Both the position numbers and the translations under genes were made by a program. From positions 248,001 through 312,000 of the forward strand of contig NZ_FRAA01000003.1 in the NCBI RefSeq assembly GCF_900142205.1: a DNA stretch of 64,000 nucleotides, given 5' to 3'. The notes under the pieces are model-generated. The model made no database searches. It was not told where the DNA came from and was given only the letters and a program-made list of their open reading frames with translations. Position 1 is the first letter of the stretch. Every line of letters starts with the position of its first letter. This DNA is from Reichenbachiella agariperforans (GTDB taxonomy: Bacteria > Bacteroidota > Bacteroidia > Cytophagales > Cyclobacteriaceae). Below, piece by piece: positions 9,580 to 39,522 of this stretch.

Positions 9580-9689
9580 TTGCGCTAGGTCGACGCTCCC
9601 CTTGCGCAAGGGGGAGCCTGTGCTTGGGCAAGCTCAACTGCCTGCTTGCCCAAGGTGGATCTTCTGCTTGCGCAAGCAGAAACCCAAAC
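9580..9689. repeat. 22-bp-period array A (five units, TTGCGCAAG heads)
   Basis: Five units start at 9580, 9602, 9624, 9646 and 9668, exactly 22 bp apart. The heads read TTGCGCTAG, TTGCGCAAG, TTGGGCAAG, TTGCCCAAG and TTGCGCAAG. The remaining 12-13 bp of each unit differ, although three end in TGC. The last unit is centred on a perfect 18-bp palindrome (9663-9680). The period is not a multiple of 3, so the repeat is not selected as protein. It precedes the AT-rich patch that begins near 9850. Confidence 0.85.
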
Positions 9690-9892: not shown

Positions 9893-9917
9893 CTGTGGAG
9901 TGAACTATATTCGGTTG

Positions 9918-9926
9918 TTGGCAACC
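9918..9926 (+). repeat. Cassette-like left core TTGGCAACC
   Basis: This 9-bp core lies 7 bp before the ATG at 9934. Its exact reverse complement, GGTTGCCAA, is at 10510-10518, 24 bp after the stop codon. The pair encloses only the orphan gene, an arrangement repeated around 36976-37677 with a related core. Confidence 0.5.
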
Positions 9927-9933
9927 ATTTAGA

Positions 9934-10485
9934 ATGAAAATAGAAAAGAAAGATATCCCAATTTTAAAAGGTTTATTGTCAGAATTGATTAAGCCAATAA
10001 ATAGCAATGGAATTGATTTTGACAGCTTACCAAAGGATTTTAAGCAAAATTTCAATAATAATAATAATGATTTAGATACTGAATTCAGAAGATTTGCAAA
10101 TATTTTTGACAAAGCAGAGGCAGGAAAATTTGAACAGTCTCAAATTGGATGGGCTTTGATTTTAAGGACATCCAATTCTTATGGTTTTGATTTTGATGAT
10201 TATTTTAAAACCCAAAATAGAAAGGAAAGAAAGGCGGAATTGGATTTTCAAATTTCAAAAATAAAAGCCAAAACATTTATCCCAGTATTAATTTTAGGTT
10301 CTTTTGGTGGAATTTATAGTGGTATTAGCTTATTGAAAGATTTTGGAATTATCCCAAATAAAGAAATAGAAACCCAACAACAAGCTGATGAAATTCAAAA
10401 TCAAGAATCAACTTTAATTAAAGACAACGAAACTATTGATAATTTGCAGAATAAGATTCTAAAGAATTCTGATACAATTAAATAG
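9934..10485 (+). CDS. Orphan AT-rich membrane protein, unknown function
   Basis: A 183-residue product that I do not recognise. The N-terminal 105 residues are charged and helical with an Asn-rich stretch. One transmembrane segment lies at about 113-133 (FIPVLILGSFGGIYSGISLL), and the C-terminus is a coiled-coil-like Q/N/E-rich tail (about 140-183). Base composition is much more AT-rich than the neighbours, which points to recent acquisition. It is enclosed by inverted 9-bp cores and has no operon partner. Confidence 0.7.
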   Translation: MKIEKKDIPILKGLLSELIKPINSNGIDFDSLPKDFKQNFNNNNNDLDTEFRRFANIFDKAEAGKFEQSQIGWALILRTSNSYGFDFDDYFKTQNRKERKAELDFQISKIKAKTFIPVLILGSFGGIYSGISLLKDFGIIPNKEIETQQQADEIQNQESTLIKDNETIDNLQNKILKNSDTIK

Positions 10486-10509
10486 TTTTATAACTAGCTG
10501 ATAAAAAAC

Positions 10510-10518
10510 GGTTGCCAA
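10510..10518 (-). repeat. Cassette-like right core GGTTGCCAA
   Basis: The exact inverse of the core at 9918-9926, located just after the orphan gene. It overlaps the start of the 15-bp direct repeat at 10517, so two boundary signals meet here. Confidence 0.45.
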
Positions 10519-10531
10519 TCAAGTAGACGGC
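10517..10531. repeat. 15-bp direct repeat AATCAAGTAGACGGC, copy 1
   Basis: Identical to 11327-11341. The two copies bracket about 800 bp holding the intron-like remnant and the toxin-antitoxin pair. On the minus strand the motif ends in CTACTTGATT, similar to the 3' ends of several Bacteroidota group II introns. Confidence 0.7.
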
Positions 10532-10620
10532 TGACGATCAAATGACCGCCAGTGCGCCTCTCACACCACCCAGCGTACGGTTACCCTACAGGCCTGCTCG
10601 CAAGGGACCTCCGGTTCGTA
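10517..10620 (-). other. Group II intron 3'-end-like remnant (domains V-VI)
   Basis: On the minus strand this segment contains GGTAACCGTACG, GGTGGTGTGAGAGG (10557-10570), a weak hairpin CTGGCG...CGTCAG and a terminal GTCTACTTGATT. This is the order seen at the 3' ends of bacterial group II introns that end in ...CTACTCGATT. Pairing in the proposed domain V is imperfect and no reverse transcriptase gene is present, so this would be a dead fragment. The call is by motif memory only. Confidence 0.4.
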
Positions 10621-10792
10621 GGAGTTTTCATCTTTCTAAACGCAGTGCTTTCCAATACTTTCGATGCGCTGGAAGATTTTGCCACTTCGTCCAAAGTGTG
10701 AGCACATGCCTCATACATGGGCGATAGCGAAAATTAACATCTAATAAATCTACTTCAGACAAATTCAATCATACTTTTTCGTAAATTGTAGT

Positions 10793-11011: not shown

Positions 11012-11328
11012 GTAGTAAGCATACTATTTACTTATCTCCTGTTGCAGAATTAAAACTAGATAAACTCCTTGAATATCTAAATTCTGAGTGGGGACATCAA
11101 TCTAAATCAAATTTTCTTAAAGATTTAGATTCAGCAATCCGAAGAATTGAAAAATTCCCTGAATCCTCTCCTAAAACTAATTTAATGGGCGGGTTTTACA
11201 AATGTGTTATTTCCAAACAAACATCTTTTTATTACAGAATTAAAGGACTTGATATAGAAATAATTACTCTTAGTGATAATCGACAAAATCCAAAAGAACT
11301 ACTAAAGGAGATTAAAAAAAATCGCTAA
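11008..11328 (+). CDS. ParE/RelE family toxin
   Basis: A 106-residue protein starting at GTG 11008. It shows the RelE/ParE order: N-terminal strand (TIYLSPVAELKLDKLLEYL), helix pair with AIRRIEKFPESSPK, then the beta-sheet YKCVISKQTSFYYRIKGLDIEIITLSDNRQNP. The central ...YYRI and final DNRQNP are typical of the superfamily. Members inhibit growth by cleaving mRNA or poisoning gyrase; which applies here cannot be told. The length is normal and it appears intact with its antitoxin. Confidence 0.85.
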   Translation: MSSKHTIYLSPVAELKLDKLLEYLNSEWGHQSKSNFLKDLDSAIRRIEKFPESSPKTNLMGGFYKCVISKQTSFYYRIKGLDIEIITLSDNRQNPKELLKEIKKNR

Positions 11329-11405: not shown

Positions 11406-11537
11406 TTGCCTTACCATGAGATCCAAGTAAGCTTTAGTTGGGGTGTATGTTGCCTTACCATGGGCTCCAAGTAAGCTTTAGTTGAGGTGTGTGTTGCCTT
11501 ACCTTATACTCCTAGTAAGCTTACCTTTTTGGGTATG
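11406..11537. repeat. 22-bp-period array B (six units, TTGCCTTACC / TAAGCTTTAG alternating)
   Basis: Six units start at 11406, 11428, 11450, 11472, 11494 and 11516, exactly 22 bp apart. Odd units begin TTGCCTTACC and even units begin TAAGCTTTAG (the last reads TAAGCTTACC). This gives an apparent 44-bp higher-order repeat in which unit pairs 1-2 and 3-4 are nearly identical. The tails vary but often end in AAG or ATG. Heads of both kinds recur in the array at 38069. Confidence 0.88.
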
Positions 11538-34285: not shown

Positions 34286-34434
34286 TTATTTTATCAAATA
34301 TTTCTTCCCGTTAATGTTTGTACAGTCTTTTGCCATTACGTCTAACAACCGGAGATGAAGTATGCTTTGAACTGTAATTAAGAAAGTAAAATAGGGTAAT
34401 AGATCAAAAGTGACAAGACGAACGAGGAGCTGAT

Positions 34435-34528
34435 TTCAGTTCGATCGCAATTGCACTGCGATCGCTTCTTCTGGGCATTTCAAATGCCTCTAAAGTTTTC
34501 AGTCGAATTAGGACATGCGACTGAGCGG
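34435..34528. repeat. 94-bp structured repeat, copy 1
   Basis: The first of three same-orientation copies (others at 36609-36702 and 37892-37985). It contains three successive dyads: CGATCGCA...TGCGATCG, GGCATTTcAAATGCC and CAGTCG...CGACTG. Copy 1 keeps all arms complementary. The REP/RAYT-type style is suggested, with no transposase nearby. Confidence 0.88.
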
Positions 34529-34581
34529 AGATAGAGATGGGTCAAGCATGATTTCATTACAGCATGTTGTGATCCGTCTTT

Positions 34582-34875
34582 TTAGCCGATTGTCAGATTA
34601 ACTCGTTTACCTAAACCAACTTCCATTAGCCTGTATAGCGTAGAAAGCTGAATGTCGCTATGCCCATTTTCTATTCTAGAAATGAAGCTTTTCTTCGTGC
34701 CTGTTCGTTCCGCTAGTTGTTCCTGAGTTAAATGCGCCTCTTTACGCGCATCTCTGATTATCTCTCCAATGGCAAAGGCTTTTGCTTTGATTTCAAAATT
34801 AACCCGTTCAGCTGTTCCGATTTCACCGTATTGTTCAGTTAAATGATCGTCGAATGATGTTATGTGTTCGTTCAT
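34582..34875 (-). CDS. HigA-type XRE antitoxin
   Basis: A 97-residue protein with an N-terminal extension and an XRE helix-turn-helix (IRDARKEAHLTQEQLAERTGTKKSFISRIENGHSDIQLSTLYRL, about 40-83). It follows the toxin gene with a 4-nt overlap, the HigBA order of toxin first. It should neutralise the toxin and repress the operon. It appears intact. Confidence 0.88.
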   Translation of the reverse strand: MNEHITSFDDHLTEQYGEIGTAERVNFEIKAKAFAIGEIIRDARKEAHLTQEQLAERTGTKKSFISRIENGHSDIQLSTLYRLMEVGLGKRVNLTIG

Positions 34876-35180
34876 TTTGATTTGTTTTTAAGGTCAAAGT
34901 ATTCTTCTTTTATTCTCAATGCTCTTTCAATCTCTTTCTTTGGAGTCTTTTGGGACTTCTTTTGAAAACCGTTGAAAAGCACTACCAGATTCCCATTATC
35001 AAAACAGCAAAATACCCTGTAGATGTTACTACGATATTCAATGCGTATTTCAAATAGACCATCTGTTCCTGTCATATGCCTGAAGAATTTACTGGGTATT
35101 CTTTCTGCAATACGAATCATAAAGAGAACCTCATCTACTTTGTTCTTAAGTTTTGGATCCAATTTTCTGCCAGTATTCAT
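34872..35180 (-). CDS. HigB/RelE-type toxin, probably N-terminally shortened
   Basis: A 102-residue protein with the HigB core FFRHMTGTDGLFEIRIEYRSNIYRVFCCFDNGNLVVLFNGFQKKSQKTPKKEIERA. Family members usually begin with a beta strand and helix before DPKLKNKV; here the ATG at 35180 is directly preceded by an in-frame TAG, so that strand is missing. Its 5' end overlaps the 3' end of the HEPN-like gene by 35 nt. Activity is uncertain. Confidence 0.75.
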   Translation of the reverse strand: MNTGRKLDPKLKNKVDEVLFMIRIAERIPSKFFRHMTGTDGLFEIRIEYRSNIYRVFCCFDNGNLVVLFNGFQKKSQKTPKKEIERALRIKEEYFDLKNKSK

Positions 35181-35811
35181 CTACAAGCTTTCGATCTTCC
35201 AGAACAGAATCTATGGAAGCAATGTTTATTTCGAACATGAAATGAACACCGGTCAAGCCTTCGTTTATTTTATGAAATACTGCAATTGCAAGATCCTTGA
35301 CAACCTTAAGATCACTTAAAGTTTCCGGTTGAAAATCGCTGGCGTCTTTATCCGAATGAGCATAAAATTTTAATCGTCTGTTGTTGACTTTTTCTAAAAT
35401 AGCTGATTGTTCATCTATATAGGCTCTAATTACTGAAACTATTTGGATGAATTCTGCTTTCGATTTAATGGAACCACCACTATCAGTCGTTTTTTCATTA
35501 GATTCTATAAGTTCTCTTAATTCCTTATTGAAGTCAGAATTTTCTATTTTGTTGCATAGCTTGAGAATACTCCAGCTTTCACCCTTCTTAAATATTTTAT
35601 AGCAATTAATAACACAGTTAGAATATGATAGATATACATAGTGACCAATAAATCCTTCAATTGGCTTTAGCAATAAGCCTTCATTTTGTGATTTAATGAT
35701 TTGCTCAATATTTGAAATACATATTGATATGTCATATATGAAACTCTTAAGGTGCTTGATATAATCATTGACTTCATTAAGTGTTAGTTCTGGTTTCATG
35801 GGGTGTTTCAA
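35146..35811 (-). CDS. HEPN-like (AbiU2-like) protein, putative
   Basis: A 221-residue helical protein. RRLKFYAH at residues 145-152 fits the Rx4-6H motif of HEPN ribonucleases (R146-x5-H152), preceded by helices with YVYLSYSNCVINCYKIF, as in AbiU2-like abortive infection proteins. The C-terminus (EYWQKIG) runs into the HigB gene. A role in phage defence or a toxin-like RNase is inferred from the motif and from the adjacent HigBA module; the family assignment is tentative. Confidence 0.6.
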   Translation of the reverse strand: MKHPMKPELTLNEVNDYIKHLKSFIYDISICISNIEQIIKSQNEGLLLKPIEGFIGHYVYLSYSNCVINCYKIFKKGESWSILKLCNKIENSDFNKELRELIESNEKTTDSGGSIKSKAEFIQIVSVIRAYIDEQSAILEKVNNRRLKFYAHSDKDASDFQPETLSDLKVVKDLAIAVFHKINEGLTGVHFMFEINIASIDSVLEDRKLVDEYWQKIGSKT

Positions 35812-35857
35812 TTACAACTAAAGCCACGGTATCAAACCCTTTGTCATGTACAGTAGT

Positions 35858-35894
35858 AATTGATTAATTATTTTACTAATAATTAATCAATTAA
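35858..35894. promoter_or_regulatory. Perfect 16-bp inverted repeat upstream of the HEPN-like gene
   Basis: The arms TAATTGATTAATTATT (35858-35873) and AATAATTAATCAATTA (35879-35894) enclose TTACT. The element is 47 bp before the HEPN-like start and could be an operator, or a terminator for the gene at 36054. It contains no GC-rich stem. Confidence 0.7.
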
Positions 35895-36053
35895 ATAACT
35901 TGGGAGAGCTATGAATCAAGCCGCGTTTGATAAAGATAAAGTATCGTCTACTAAATAGCCAGTTCTGCGAATTGGCGAGGCTGCCAGAATGCAGAAAACC
36001 TTGGAATAGCACTACATACACATGATTTGATCACAGGATGTTGGCTGTATATT

Positions 36054-36380
36054 TCACTCATCGAATTTGTTTTTTTTCTCAATCTTTATCGAGTTTAGAG
36101 AACGGTTGTAATAAAGGAAAAACAATGCAGAGGAAATCGTGAACATAACAAATGCAGGTTTATAATTATAAAAATAAATTTTTCTATAAGTATGCCTCTC
36201 TATTACATTTTCGCCAGTTGGAATTAGTTGTTTTTTCACATACTCCCACTCGTGTTCAGTATTGTTAAATACAAAAACACCAATGATAAAACCAAGGGTC
36301 ATCGAAAGAATTATATTATTAATTAACTTTTCAGAACCTCGCTTAAAAAAATGAATTAATTGTTTAAGTCGGTTTACCAT
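36054..36380 (-). CDS. Hypothetical two-helix membrane protein (108 aa)
   Basis: Starting at ATG 36380 gives 108 residues with two transmembrane helices (ILSMTLGFIIGVFVFN and AFVMFTISSALFFLYYN) around a basic, Tyr-rich loop. No family is known. It is AT-rich, isolated on the minus strand, and preceded by GGTTGTTAGC (complement of 36399-36408) and an imperfect AT-rich dyad (36409-36434), the same 5' arrangement as the other orphan genes of the island. Confidence 0.6.
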   Translation of the reverse strand: MVNRLKQLIHFFKRGSEKLINNIILSMTLGFIIGVFVFNNTEHEWEYVKKQLIPTGENVIERHTYRKIYFYNYKPAFVMFTISSALFFLYYNRSLNSIKIEKKNKFDE

Positions 36381-36608
36381 TGTTTTAATCAAGTTACAGC
36401 TAACAACCATATAAAGCACACCATGCACTTATATATCTGCTATGTCTTTATACTGTTCTTTATTTTTCTACGTAGTGACAGCTCTCAATAGGGCGAATCG
36501 CCCACAGGATAGAGATAGCTGCACACTTCGAAGATAGTGATAGTCTAGTGATCAAACAACAATCCTAGGTTGATACCTACTTGCCCCAAAAACCTGACGG
36601 AACACCAA

Positions 36609-36702
36609 TTCAGCTCGATCACAATTGCACTGCGATCGCTTTTTCTGGGCATTTCAAATGCCTCTAAAGTTTTCAGTCGCATTAGGACATGTGACCGAGC
36701 GG
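36609..36702. repeat. 94-bp structured repeat, copy 2
   Basis: It has the same length, orientation and order of elements as copies 1 and 3. Here the first dyad is weakened (GATCACAATTGCA...TGCGATCGC), as in copy 3. It lies between two orphan genes. Confidence 0.88.
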
Positions 36703-36838
36703 GTACAGTTCGCACATGCATCTCTCCGCCATGTTACCTGCCGGTTTCTACCTCAAGGCTTGGTCGTTCAAGAAGGTAACGGTTAGTATAAGAAACGTAG
36801 GGCAGGTGATAAGCACTTGCGTTTCGGTTTATTACTTA

Positions 36839-36899
36839 GCTAAATATAAATATTTTGCTTTTATCTTTTCTACTATAAATGCCAAATTTTATATTTAGC
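36839..36899. repeat. Long imperfect hairpin in the cassette boundary region
   Basis: GCTAAATATAAATATTTTGC (36839-36858) pairs with GCCAAATTTTATATTTAGC (36881-36899) with few mismatches. Outer segments GGTTTATTAC and CTTTCGGTTTAGC add weaker symmetry. The structure ends about 60 bp before the GTTAGCAAC core next to the gene at 36976, recalling the extended dyads of integron attC sites. Confidence 0.55.
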
Positions 36900-36962
36900 G
36901 GACTTTGTTAATATTCACAGAACTTTCGGTTTAGCACAAATGACCTATGTTTTTTATACCGT

Positions 36963-36971
36963 GTTAGCAAC
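36963..36971 (+). repeat. Cassette-like core GTTAGCAAC
   Basis: It lies 4 bp beyond the stop codon of the minus-strand gene at 36976. Its exact inverse, GTTGCTAAC, is at 37698-37706 before that gene's start. The pair encloses a single gene. Confidence 0.5.
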
Positions 36972-36975
36972 TAGG

Positions 36976-37677
36976 TTATTCTTTCTTTTCGATTTCTACG
37001 TCAATTATTTTTAGGGATAAAAGCTTAGTAAATAATTCAAGTATTAATTTATAAATATTTGATATTTCAATAGTTCCAAATACACCAGTCCTTTCGGCAA
37101 TTCCTTGTTCGATTAAATCATCTATCGAATTATTGTATTTGTATTTTATTTCAAAAGCTCTTATTTCAACGCAAAGTTGGCTTACGTCAGATATTATTTC
37201 CTGGTCAATATCTAAAGAATGAAAACCTATTATTGTCTCTAATTTAGTGTTAAGATTGTCCAATCTTTTTTTCTCTAAAGTAACTAAGTCAAATTTCTCA
37301 TCAGGATTTAGATTTTGAAACTTGCTTAAAATCAATTTCCTTATTTTTAAATGAGTTATTTCTATGAATAAGTTTAGGTCTATTATTCCAATAAACTTAT
37401 GATTTTTTAAGTCTTTTTTTGTGGTGTAAATAGATAATTGTTCAGAAGTTAGTTCCTTATCTTTAAAAGGGGATTTTTCAATAAATCCACAAAACTCTTG
37501 AATAATATAGGATATTTTGGTCGTTATAAATTTCTTTCTTTTTTTCTTCAGTAGTTTTAAAGTGAAATGAGGTATTGCTAATATGGATATTAAGATACTA
37601 ATTATTAAGAAAATAAAACTTACAAATGAGTTCATCAAAAATGAATCCCAATCAAAACACGAAAAAAAATCACTCAT
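36976..37677 (-). CDS. Orphan AT-rich membrane-anchored protein, unknown function
   Basis: A 233-residue protein with an N-terminal transmembrane segment (about 14-38, MNSFVSFIFLIISILISILA) and a basic stop-transfer (KKKRKK), then a long helical cytosolic part with Lys/Glu/Ile bias. I recognise no family. It is very AT-rich and enclosed by exact inverted 9-bp cores, so it looks like a gene cassette. Confidence 0.7.
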   Translation of the reverse strand: MSDFFSCFDWDSFLMNSFVSFIFLIISILISILAIPHFTLKLLKKKRKKFITTKISYIIQEFCGFIEKSPFKDKELTSEQLSIYTTKKDLKNHKFIGIIDLNLFIEITHLKIRKLILSKFQNLNPDEKFDLVTLEKKRLDNLNTKLETIIGFHSLDIDQEIISDVSQLCVEIRAFEIKYKYNNSIDDLIEQGIAERTGVFGTIEISNIYKLILELFTKLLSLKIIDVEIEKKE

Positions 37678-37697
37678 AAATATTTTGGTTTTTCCTT

Positions 37698-37731
37698 GTT
37701 GCTAACATTTCACTATACGCAATTGCGTATA
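37698..37731 (-). repeat. Cassette 5' boundary: core GTTGCTAAC plus palindrome TATACGCAATTGCGTATA
   Basis: The core (37698-37706) and a perfect 18-bp palindrome (37714-37731) lie 20 and 36 bp upstream of the start at 37677. The order palindrome, core, start codon matches that before the orphan gene at 9934. Confidence 0.6.
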
Positions 37732-37891
37732 TAGTATTGGTATCAACACTACGACAGTCATTGATATCCCCAAGAATACCCCTTAGCCCTGATAGATACA
37801 AGCAAGCGGATCTCTAAGATCAAAGTACAGCCTATATATACCTAGATACAGGGGGCTATTCAGTGAAGTGTGACGGGATTTACTCCTGACG

Positions 37892-37985
37892 TTCAGCTCG
37901 ATCACAATTGCACTGCGATCGCTTCTTCTGGGTATTTCAAATGCCTCTAAAGTTTTCAGTCGCATTAGGACATGTGACCGAGCGG
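37892..37985. repeat. 94-bp structured repeat, copy 3
   Basis: The third copy in the same orientation, nearly identical to copy 2 (GGGTATTT replaces GGGCATTT in the middle dyad). It lies in a 786-bp stretch (37678-38463) without an intact gene. Confidence 0.88.
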
Positions 37986-38068
37986 CCCCCTTCGAATAGC
38001 ACAAAACGCTATGAGGTGGGTGCTATATTTTGGGTTGGGAGGTGAGGTGAGACCTGATCTATCCAAAC

Positions 38069-38200
38069 TAAGCTTAGTTCGGCTTCCATGTTGCCTTACC
38101 TCAGGGTCAAGGTAAGCTTAGTTCCACCCTGTAGTAAGCTTAGGTTGGGGCTCTGGTAAGCTTACCTTCAGGCTCAGGTAAGCTTAGCTATTTGTCCACT
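38069..38200. repeat. 22-bp-period array C (six units, TAAGCTTA heads)
   Basis: Units start at 38069, 38091, 38113, 38135, 38157 and 38179, exactly 22 bp apart. Five heads read TAAGCTTA followed by GT, GG, CC or GC; the second reads TTGCCTTACC, identical to the odd heads of the array at 11406. The tails vary. The first head lies in a perfect 14-bp palindrome AACTAAGCTTAGTT (38066-38079). Confidence 0.9.
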
Positions 38201-38358
38201 TTTTTGTTGCAAGTCCACTCACCACGCTCTGCCACTTGCTCAATGGGCTAGAGATGGCCAACATCGCGGGTATCGCGGCACTCAATACCCAGATAGACCA
38301 AATCATCATGGAGGTAGAAGTACCCGCTAGATCCAGATCCACCAAAAAAAGGAAATAA
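38188..38358 (+). pseudogene. C-terminal remnant of an unidentified protein
   Basis: An open plus-strand frame from 38188 to a TAA at 38356-38358 has no clear start. Its last 45 codons have core-like composition and read LTTLCHLLNGLEMANIAGI, then ALNTQIDQIIMEVEVPARS and a basic end. It follows the repeat array directly and precedes a terminator, so it looks like the tail of a gene whose body was lost. Confidence 0.45.
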
Positions 38359-38429
38359 CAACGAGGAGTAGTCGCTCGCCTGAGCAGCGAAGAATCCTCC
38401 GTGCTCTGTCATGTTTATCCATTGCTTGT

Positions 38430-38457
38430 AAAAGGCGAGTCGGTCGACTCGCCTTTT
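38430..38457. terminator. Bidirectional terminator between the island and the ars operon
   Basis: The arms AAAAGGCGAGTC (38430-38441) and GACTCGCCTTTT (38446-38457) enclose a GGTC loop. It ends 6 bp from the acr3 stop codon, so it closes the arsenic operon on the minus strand. Confidence 0.92.
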
Positions 38458-38463
38458 ATGATG

Positions 38464-39522
38464 TTATGATGTGCGAGGTTGTCCATAATACTTGGCTTTG
38501 AGCCAAAACGCCACACGTACCAGCAGTATCAGCGCAGGCACCTCTACCAAAGGCCCAATCACGCCAGCAAAGGCTTGTCCGGAGTTCAAACCAAACACGG
38601 CGATAGCTACTGCAATGGCCAATTCGAAGTTGTTGCCCGCAGCTGTGAAAGCAATGGAGGCATTCTGACTGTAGTCCGCTCCGACTGCTTTGCTGATGAA
38701 AAACCCAATCAAGAACATGATAAAGAAATAAACCAACAAAGGAATCGCTATCCGCACCACATCCATCGGGATCTCTACGATCAATTCTCCCTTGAGCGAA
38801 AACATCACCACGATGGTAAACAAAAGCGCAATCAGTGTCATCGGCGAAATCGCTGGGATAAAACGGTTGTTGTACCAGTCTTCTCCTTTGACCCTAACCA
38901 AAATCACTCGACTCAAAATCCCCATCAAAAAGGGCAAGCCCAGATACAATGCCACACTCTCAGCAATAGTCCCTATGGATATGTCAACGATGGCTCCCTC
39001 AAACCCAAAATACGGTGGCAGCACAGTGATAAACAACCATGCATAAAAGCTATAACCGAACACCTGAAAAACACTATTGAGGGCTACCAAACCCGCACCA
39101 TACTCGGTACTGCCTTCTGCCAGATCATTCCAGACGAGCACCATCGCGATGCATCTGGCCAGTCCGATTAGAATCAGTCCTACCATATACTCAGGGTAGT
39201 CACTCAAAAACAAGATGGCCAATACAAACATCAATACAGGACCAATAATCCAGTTGAGCAACAGCGATACGGATAGCACTTTGACGTTCTTAAATACCGC
39301 TGGGAGTAGCCTATAATTGACCTTGGCCAGCGGTGGATACATCATCAAAATCAGCCCTATCGCGATGGGTACATTGGTCGATCCATGACTAAACGAATTG
39401 ATAAAACCAGCTGTGGATGGCACCAAATATCCTATAGAAACCCCCACAGCCATGGCCAAAAATATCCACCATGTCAGATGCTGATCGAGAAAACTTAATT
39501 TTTTTGAACTCCCCATGGTCAT
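38464..39522 (-). CDS. acr3: ACR3 family arsenite efflux transporter
   Basis: A 352-residue inner-membrane protein with about ten transmembrane helices. ACR3 hallmarks are [16 protein letters not shown] (the conserved Cys of TM4) and [15 protein letters not shown] with [23 protein letters not shown] near the end. It exports arsenite using the proton gradient. It is the last gene of the ars operon, overlapping the arsC-like gene by 4 nt. Confidence 0.95.

Follow-up and report, generated by a model that had tools for sequence, protein, structure and literature searches.

Palindrome arrays with a fixed 22-bp pitch, dispersed among genomes and in part apparently housed in cassette-type spacers

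Array C of the window (the whole stretch of 64,000 nucleotides analysed here) is a lattice of palindromic heads set at a fixed pitch of 22 bp, and belongs to a family that is dispersed in its own genome and in others of the genus. We tentatively read such arrays, at a probability of roughly 0.4, as a foldable palindrome module that is constrained by its pitch and carried in large attC-like spacers. Array C is one copy of a dispersed 132-bp palindrome module, here inside a large spacer between integron-like gene units. The arrays would act as foldable nucleic acid, with one or more hairpins in single-stranded DNA or RNA, and folding would be their function. Within the genus, an array may be the extrudable part of a giant attC-like spacer; in other genomes, it may be a hairpin at gene 3' ends. 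The gene units would presumably move by recombination at the spacer ends.

Array C and its surroundings hold the following features:
38069-38200, no strand assigned: array C, six 22-bp units making up a 132-bp module
38047-38068, no strand assigned: leader GTGAGACCTGATCTATCCAAAC on the 5' side of array C, largely conserved among copies
37988-38198, no strand assigned: homology to the longest other copy of array C, from the alignment of copies
37892-37985, no strand assigned: 94-bp repeat module with internal inverted repeats, adjoining the start of the array-C homology

The heads of array C start at 38069, 38091, 38113, 38135, 38157, and 38179; five of the six are TAAGCTTA and the one at 38091 is TTGCCTTACC. 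These are the positions (38069 + 22n) and head types given in a preliminary description of this DNA. TAAGCTTA has six matches in the window against 1.22 expected from shuffles, none of which reaches six; five of the matches lie in array C and one in array B, so that array C accounts for the excess. The genome-wide search for heads at the 22-bp pitch, which had been proposed as a check, gave 30 matches to two exact heads in the own genome and none to the reversed control pattern (the two-head pattern is its own reverse complement, which applies to the count of 30). Searching the same genome with 37980-38200 returned ten matches: the window copy, eight others with 88-95% identity across 145-211 query bases, and a partial match of 57 bases (84%) that belongs to another array. 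The array-C family comprises nine near-copies, the window one included. Among 59 genomes searched (the own one counted), the array-C sequence is present in two, the own genome and G003, another species of the genus, where five copies have 92-94% identity. In the aligned copies, the tails are conserved along with the heads and the flanks partly so, with the flank homology stopping at a different point in each copy. The earlier model of a unit with 10 fixed and 12 free positions is not supported; as the tails are conserved across the copies of array C (88-95%), they are not free, and the half-tails are complementary as sets. A stretch resembling the leader, AGACCTGA, sits just before array D and is possibly a decayed repeat unit. 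The 94-bp module, whose inverted repeats were recognised by eye, has copies at 36609-36702 and 34435-34528 (identity 93.6-97.9%), one per spacer in three spacers of the run at 34346-38206. Between the array-C spacer and the gene at 38464-39522 there is a short open stretch (38207-38458) that ends MANIAGIAALNTQIDQIIMEVEVPARSRSTKKRK, as judged by eye. A terminator-like inverted repeat lies at about 38428-38458.

Two other arrays lie in the window:
11406-11537, no strand assigned: array B, six units
9602-9675, no strand assigned: array A, four heads (TTGCGCAA, TTGGGCAA, TTGCCCAA, TTGCGCAA) at 22-bp pitch

Array B has the heads TTGCCTTACC (three), TAAGCTTTAG (two), and TAAGCTTACC (one), and contains TAAGCTTA in exact form just once. 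The earlier statement that arrays B and C each have six units, with differing tails, is correct. Another long match to array B lies at C8:1113847 (93%).

The preference for 22 bp was measured with a lattice scan for four near-palindromic 8-mers at equal spacing (at most 2 bad pairs of 16, periods 10-44), run on 157,511 bases that the array search had not retrieved, with N stretches excluded. The scan, devised after the arrays had been seen, found seven matches at period 22, one each at 11, 39, and 44, and none at the remaining periods; five block shuffles gave no lattice at period 22. Looser or shorter settings gave 9-10 matches at period 22 and 0-3 elsewhere, save for 7-8 at period 44, twice the pitch. 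Two of the seven places are arrays A and C of the window, and the other five lie in loci chosen for cassette ends or integrase fragments. Because members of a family are related copies, the seven matches represent three families and not seven independent events. The head families at 22-bp pitch are:
TAAGCTTA: window
TTGCGCAA: array A, L182, and L183
CTGCGCAG/CCGCGCAG: L171, L172, and L180, with three-head lattices also at L178 and L179

Two of these families are unrelated to TAAGCTTA, which bears out the view that several head types exist. Pitch and dyad symmetry are kept, and the head sequence varies by family. That heads of unrelated sequence keep one pitch speaks more for a constraint of geometry than for one protein that recognises a specific sequence. 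Should pitch and dyad be conserved and the sequence be free, these bacteria would have some means of measuring 22 bases in DNA or RNA.

Three-head lattices with up to three mismatches occur in three of eight genomes of the genus (G000, G001, and G003) and the control pattern in none of the eight; the dispersed 22-bp family is present in the own genome and in two of the seven others. Among 84,980 species genomes, a set that may exclude the own genus, three exact heads at pitch were found in nine stretches of four genomes. These are Epilithonimonas lactis, Epilithonimonas sp. JDS, a metagenome-assembled genome titled Bacteroides sp. MO.1_1 (six stretches), and the rumen Bacteroidetes RUG11139, all of them Bacteroidota by title. 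Two-head lattices with at most one mismatch number 27 in MO.1_1, 4 and 3 in the two Epilithonimonas, and 7 in RUG11139, against none for the control. The dispersed family with a fixed 22-bp period, as first proposed, is thus present in the own genome, in two of seven relatives, and as exact triples in four genomes more. When 394 genomes drawn from the phylum were scanned with at most three mismatches, the own one alone had a three-head lattice, and the reversed control matched in one (G170); the TAAGCTTA head is therefore rare, and the class with this head sporadic. Matches in G016 and G023 are single pairs that look like chance. Outside the genus, where the setting was judged from simple ORF calls of at least 80 amino acids, an ORF 3' end is found no more than 60 bp from 12 of 18 arrays, with an overlap of 32 bases in one of them; of the 18, nine lie between convergent ORFs, six between codirectional, one between divergent, and two in an undetermined setting.

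The heads of the arrays are palindromes, and the half-tails extend them. Taken as sets, left and right half-tails form on average 4.22 standard pairs of 7, whereas 7-mers drawn at random from these loci form 2.63 (four lineages with 23 arrays in all, one copy of C, array B omitted). The half-tail sets lengthen the dyad of each head. The flank consensus differs from lineage to lineage; like the half-tail and compensation counts, it leaves out eight of the nine C copies and near-copies of other families. Within one unit, the half-tails pair less than expected (z -3.4), and simple 22-nt hairpins are therefore not favoured. The two flanks of one head pair as expected overall (z +0.6) and above chance in the genus (z +2.5). 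An operator lattice for a dimeric DNA-binding protein, with one palindrome per site and sites about two helical turns apart on the same helix face, would account for the palindromes, the pitch, the half-tail sets that extend the head dyad, and the match of same-head flanks in the genus. However, that match is absent in the other three lineages (z -0.2, -0.7, and +0.6), three unrelated head families with a common pitch would require several proteins of one geometry, and outside the genus a single one of the 18 arrays lies between divergent ORFs. We consider such a lattice unlikely, and return to the foldable module.

RNA folding was scored against 60 dinucleotide shuffles. Outside the C and B families, 12 of 16 arrays reach z -4 or lower on at least one strand; the exceptions are L056, MO L098, MO L103, and the viral contig L106. 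The last, whose units are nearly identical, does not surpass chance in folding; it was set aside. Among the nine C copies, z runs from -1.6 to -4.8, the window copy being one of the weakest (-1.6 and -2.5), and arrays B and B2 (z -0.7 to +0.5) give no folding signal. The modest fold of array C and the absence of one in B and B2 count against the foldable-module reading. Much of the folding comes from the palindromic heads alone. Permuting the half-tails of 16 arrays, two C copies among them, did not weaken the folding (combined p 0.23); taken singly, array B and MO L104 alone had p below 0.05. An order of half-tails that makes one long mirror-symmetric hairpin was rejected on this result. With the attC fold in view (R''/R' and L''/L' boxes on one strand), window 37685-38222 was folded as single-stranded DNA; it folds better than shuffles (z -2.2 on the minus and -3.1 on the plus strand), and its minimum-energy fold does not bring the two ends together. 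A T run of at least five follows the array end at 3 of 16 ends (both Epilithonimonas ends and L124, where it is inside the last units), so classical intrinsic terminators are not the rule.

Compensatory base changes were sought in the variant heads. An initial tally, which covered 24 arrays with 38 variant heads and omitted L056, L057, and those heads of B and C that are degenerate (more than two mismatches), found six exact reverse-complement head pairs, against 1.2 when variant heads were shuffled among arrays (P 0.00015) and 1.4 for random single mutants (P 0.0005). Over all families (29 arrays with 59 heads differing from their own reverse complement), there are 12 pairs against 6.2 from shuffling within families (P 0.001), and no excess over the 10.3 obtained when the mutated arm was flipped at random (P 0.27). 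Variant heads are thus shared between units of one array, with no preference of orientation, and the counts do not support compensation. Neither these counts nor the half-tail permutation support selection on base pairing.

Arrays D and G001b1 (loci L060:5281-7955 and L174:3165-5232) lie downstream of the same gene in two species. The protein is 88.7% identical between them and has SIS and glutamine amidotransferase domains, for which we call the gene glmS-like. The two arrays differ by a gap of 22 bases, by the heads ATAGCTTA and TAAGCTAT, which are altered in G001, and by an inverted tail (by eye). Repeat units are thus gained or lost. The preliminary description had held that the repeats are not a product of local slippage; this is right for the dispersal of whole arrays, though single units are gained or lost as just described. 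Such changes would also be expected if the arrays had no function, the palindromes growing by hairpin-primed template switching with duplication of units in either orientation and spreading passively with the spacers. The recurrence of variant heads within an array irrespective of orientation agrees with this, as does the broken head, one per array, found in all nine copies of array C. Mutation alone, however, would not obviously fix a 22-bp pitch in unrelated heads, and the same pitch is found in four lineages (the own genus, Epilithonimonas, MO.1_1, and RUG11139). We regard functionless arrays as a serious but doubtful explanation.

The preferred reading, a foldable module in large attC-like spacers, draws its second part from the surroundings of the arrays. 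Many intergenic repeats here end sharply, and the termini are of two types (a slash marks the boundary). In the first, a variable flank is followed by /AATCGAGTAGACGGCTGACGG; a 119-base query (window 10507-10625) gave 22 matches, 20 of which include the terminus, and the AATC-type terminus is found in five of the eight genus genomes. In the second, G/TT precedes the flank. A unit's two flanks, one following G/TT at its start and the other ahead of its terminal AA, tend to be reverse complements of each other, as in the GmrSD-type gene of L049, the 183-aa ORF at 9934-10485, and units in L052, L172, L178, and L179. For 15 termini, the best flank match averages 5.27 of 8 with the own partner and 4.55 with permuted partners (p 0.0018), and at least 7 of 8 positions match in 3 of 15 own pairs as compared to 2 of 210 mismatched ones. 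No partner could be found for seven of the 15, including the terminus ahead of array B. For part of the units, the layout therefore appears to be that of integron cassettes. The units and the spacer of the window concerned are:
37706-38206, minus strand: attC-like spacer holding array C, left end AAATG/TTAGCAAC with the boundary at 37705/37706
36964-37705, minus strand: cassette-like unit, ORF 36976-37677 (233 aa, no Pfam match), flanks 8/9 complementary
36041-36403, minus strand: cassette-like unit, ORF of 109 aa (no Pfam match), flanks 8/9 complementary
34567-35817, minus strand: possible cassette-like unit with AbiU2-like HEPN, Gp49/HigB-like, and HTH antitoxin-like genes, flanks 6/9
9918-10516, plus strand: cassette-like unit, ORF 9934-10485 (183 aa, no Pfam match), ends G/TTGGCAACC...GGTTGCC/AATC

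The three minus-strand units match their own flanks at 8, 8, and 6 of 9 positions, and six mismatched pairs at 2-5 of 9. The left end of the array-C spacer is backed by the opposite end of the gene unit with the 233-aa ORF, to which it is complementary; the right end, probably at 38206/38207, is placed from a TTGCAAGTCC stretch common with locus L136 of G003. On the minus strand, 34346-38206 reads as consecutive integron-like gene units, whose spacers measure 221, 223, 560, and about 501 bp. Array B starts 79 bp past a AATCAAGTAGACGG terminus at 11326/11327, for which no matching cassette start was found, and 227 bp separate the last unit of array A from the cassette start at 9917/9918. From their sequence context, arrays A, B, and C appear to occupy or adjoin the spacers that separate gene units with integron-type ends. 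At L172 and L179, the CTGCGCAG arrays are either flanked by a terminus and the start that follows it, or placed directly ahead of a start. The C copies of L047 and L052 extend to an AATCGAG end, and those of L049 and of L134-L137 in G003 have a G/TT end. The lattices of L171, L178, L180, L182, and L183 are kilobases away from a terminus or have none in the stretch examined. A cassette-spacer setting is thus supported at least for arrays A, B, and C and, among the CTGCGCAG arrays, for those at L172 and L179. It is not supported for the five lattices just named, for arrays D and E, or for those of G001, which weighs against the preferred reading. Genes beside termini include GmrSD, ApeA-like HEPN, AbiU2-like HEPN (22.4 bits, under the cut-off of 26.8), a Gp49/HigB-like and HTH pair, glyoxalase, and peptidase M24, and many have no Pfam match. 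Several arrays may therefore mark the spacers of an apparent cassette-exchange system with defence-type cargo; to our knowledge, integrons have seldom been reported in this bacterial group. To judge from its genes, for example those for TonB-plug/carboxypeptidase-like and DUF4249 proteins, the own organism probably belongs to the Bacteroidota, like the four genomes with exact triples.

None of the eight genus genomes has an IntI over the curated cut-off of TIGR02249, and weaker matches mean little as all 14 control genomes have them. We therefore do not file the system as an integron. With NF040815 (XerA/integron-type, cut-off 220 bits), a recombinase of G003 scores 233 bits and one of G001 197, below the cut-off. 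Array E adjoins a decayed stretch that weakly matches a tyrosine-recombinase end (L054:7202-7354, minus strand; 20 bits, E 9.9e-4) and has an internal stop codon. Further recombinase fragments with internal TAG are found on C8, C13, C17, and C20 of G000. At L173:2547-4726 in G001, the 5' end of a XerA/integron-type recombinase gene has apparently been cut by an insertion that carries an rve-domain gene, immediately beyond which lies a palindrome array. That geometry and not sequence defines the elements, and that they make up the part that folds in giant attC-like sites of an integron-like cassette system without IntI, perhaps served by a XerA-type recombinase, is a speculative and rather improbable extension of the foldable-module reading.

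Among the matches listed for open-licence PMC literature, there is no description of 22-bp palindrome arrays, of TAAGCTTA, or of GTAAGCTTAC. No Rfam 15 model matches at gathering score, either in the window or in nine further regions from the genus. Read as ...GCCGTCTACTCGATT, the terminus at cassette ends resembles a group II intron 3' end; a group II intron was rejected, as there is no such Rfam match. CRISPR repeats measure at least some 23 nt and alternate with unique spacers about as long; a CRISPR array was rejected, the constant part here being 8-10 bp and the remainder 12-14 bp. REP/REPIN/BIME and ERIC elements are dispersed palindromic sequences, often near gene 3' ends; the arrays share the dispersed palindromes with them and differ in that heads of unrelated sequence keep to a 22-bp pitch.

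Of the known elements that we came upon, the closest in kind is the BrickBuilt element of Porphyromonas gingivalis, a minisatellite inside a non-autonomous transposon with IS5-family-like terminal inverted repeats (PMC4596501). Its units are 23 nt long with the consensus AGAYCATARTATCCTCTCRTRTG, number from 1 to 22.8, and form 19 copies in one strain, with a limited host range (PMC4596501). Short tandem units in a dispersed intergenic element with a conserved leader and tail are common to both, and the arrays could be part of a BrickBuilt-type MITE. Unlike that element as there described, the present arrays are 22-bp palindromic lattices of 3-8 heads, several of them in cassette spacers, and the 23-nt unit AGAYCATARTATCCTCTCRTRTG is absent, the unit being 22 bp with the head TAAGCTTA (PMC4596501). 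Moreover, no terminal inverted repeats were found at the termini of the aligned copies: the ends AACATTTGTG... and ...CTACTCGATT do not form an inverted pair, and the flanks that they adjoin are part of gene units. Among the loci compared there was no clean empty site from which a target-site duplication could be read. We regard a MITE of this kind as very improbable, and the foldable module in an attC-like spacer as the better description. The TAACTGA direct repeats of Beggiatoaceae, Cyanobacteria, and five Bacteroidetes resemble the arrays in forming sporadic short sets (2-6 copies per set in the main genome) that are mostly intergenic, and differ from the palindromes here in being direct repeats of a heptamer, located in the main genome mostly just upstream of start codons (PMC4679880).

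Integron integrases cut GTTRRRY between the first and second base (PMC8876359). The units described here resemble those with attC sites in their G/TT and AA/C or AA/T ends, in the complementary flanks at start and end, and in a spacer past the gene 3' end. attC sites are 57-141 bp long, unlike the present spacers, which measure 221-560 bp in the window and about 1 kb at L172 and are spread over many loci.
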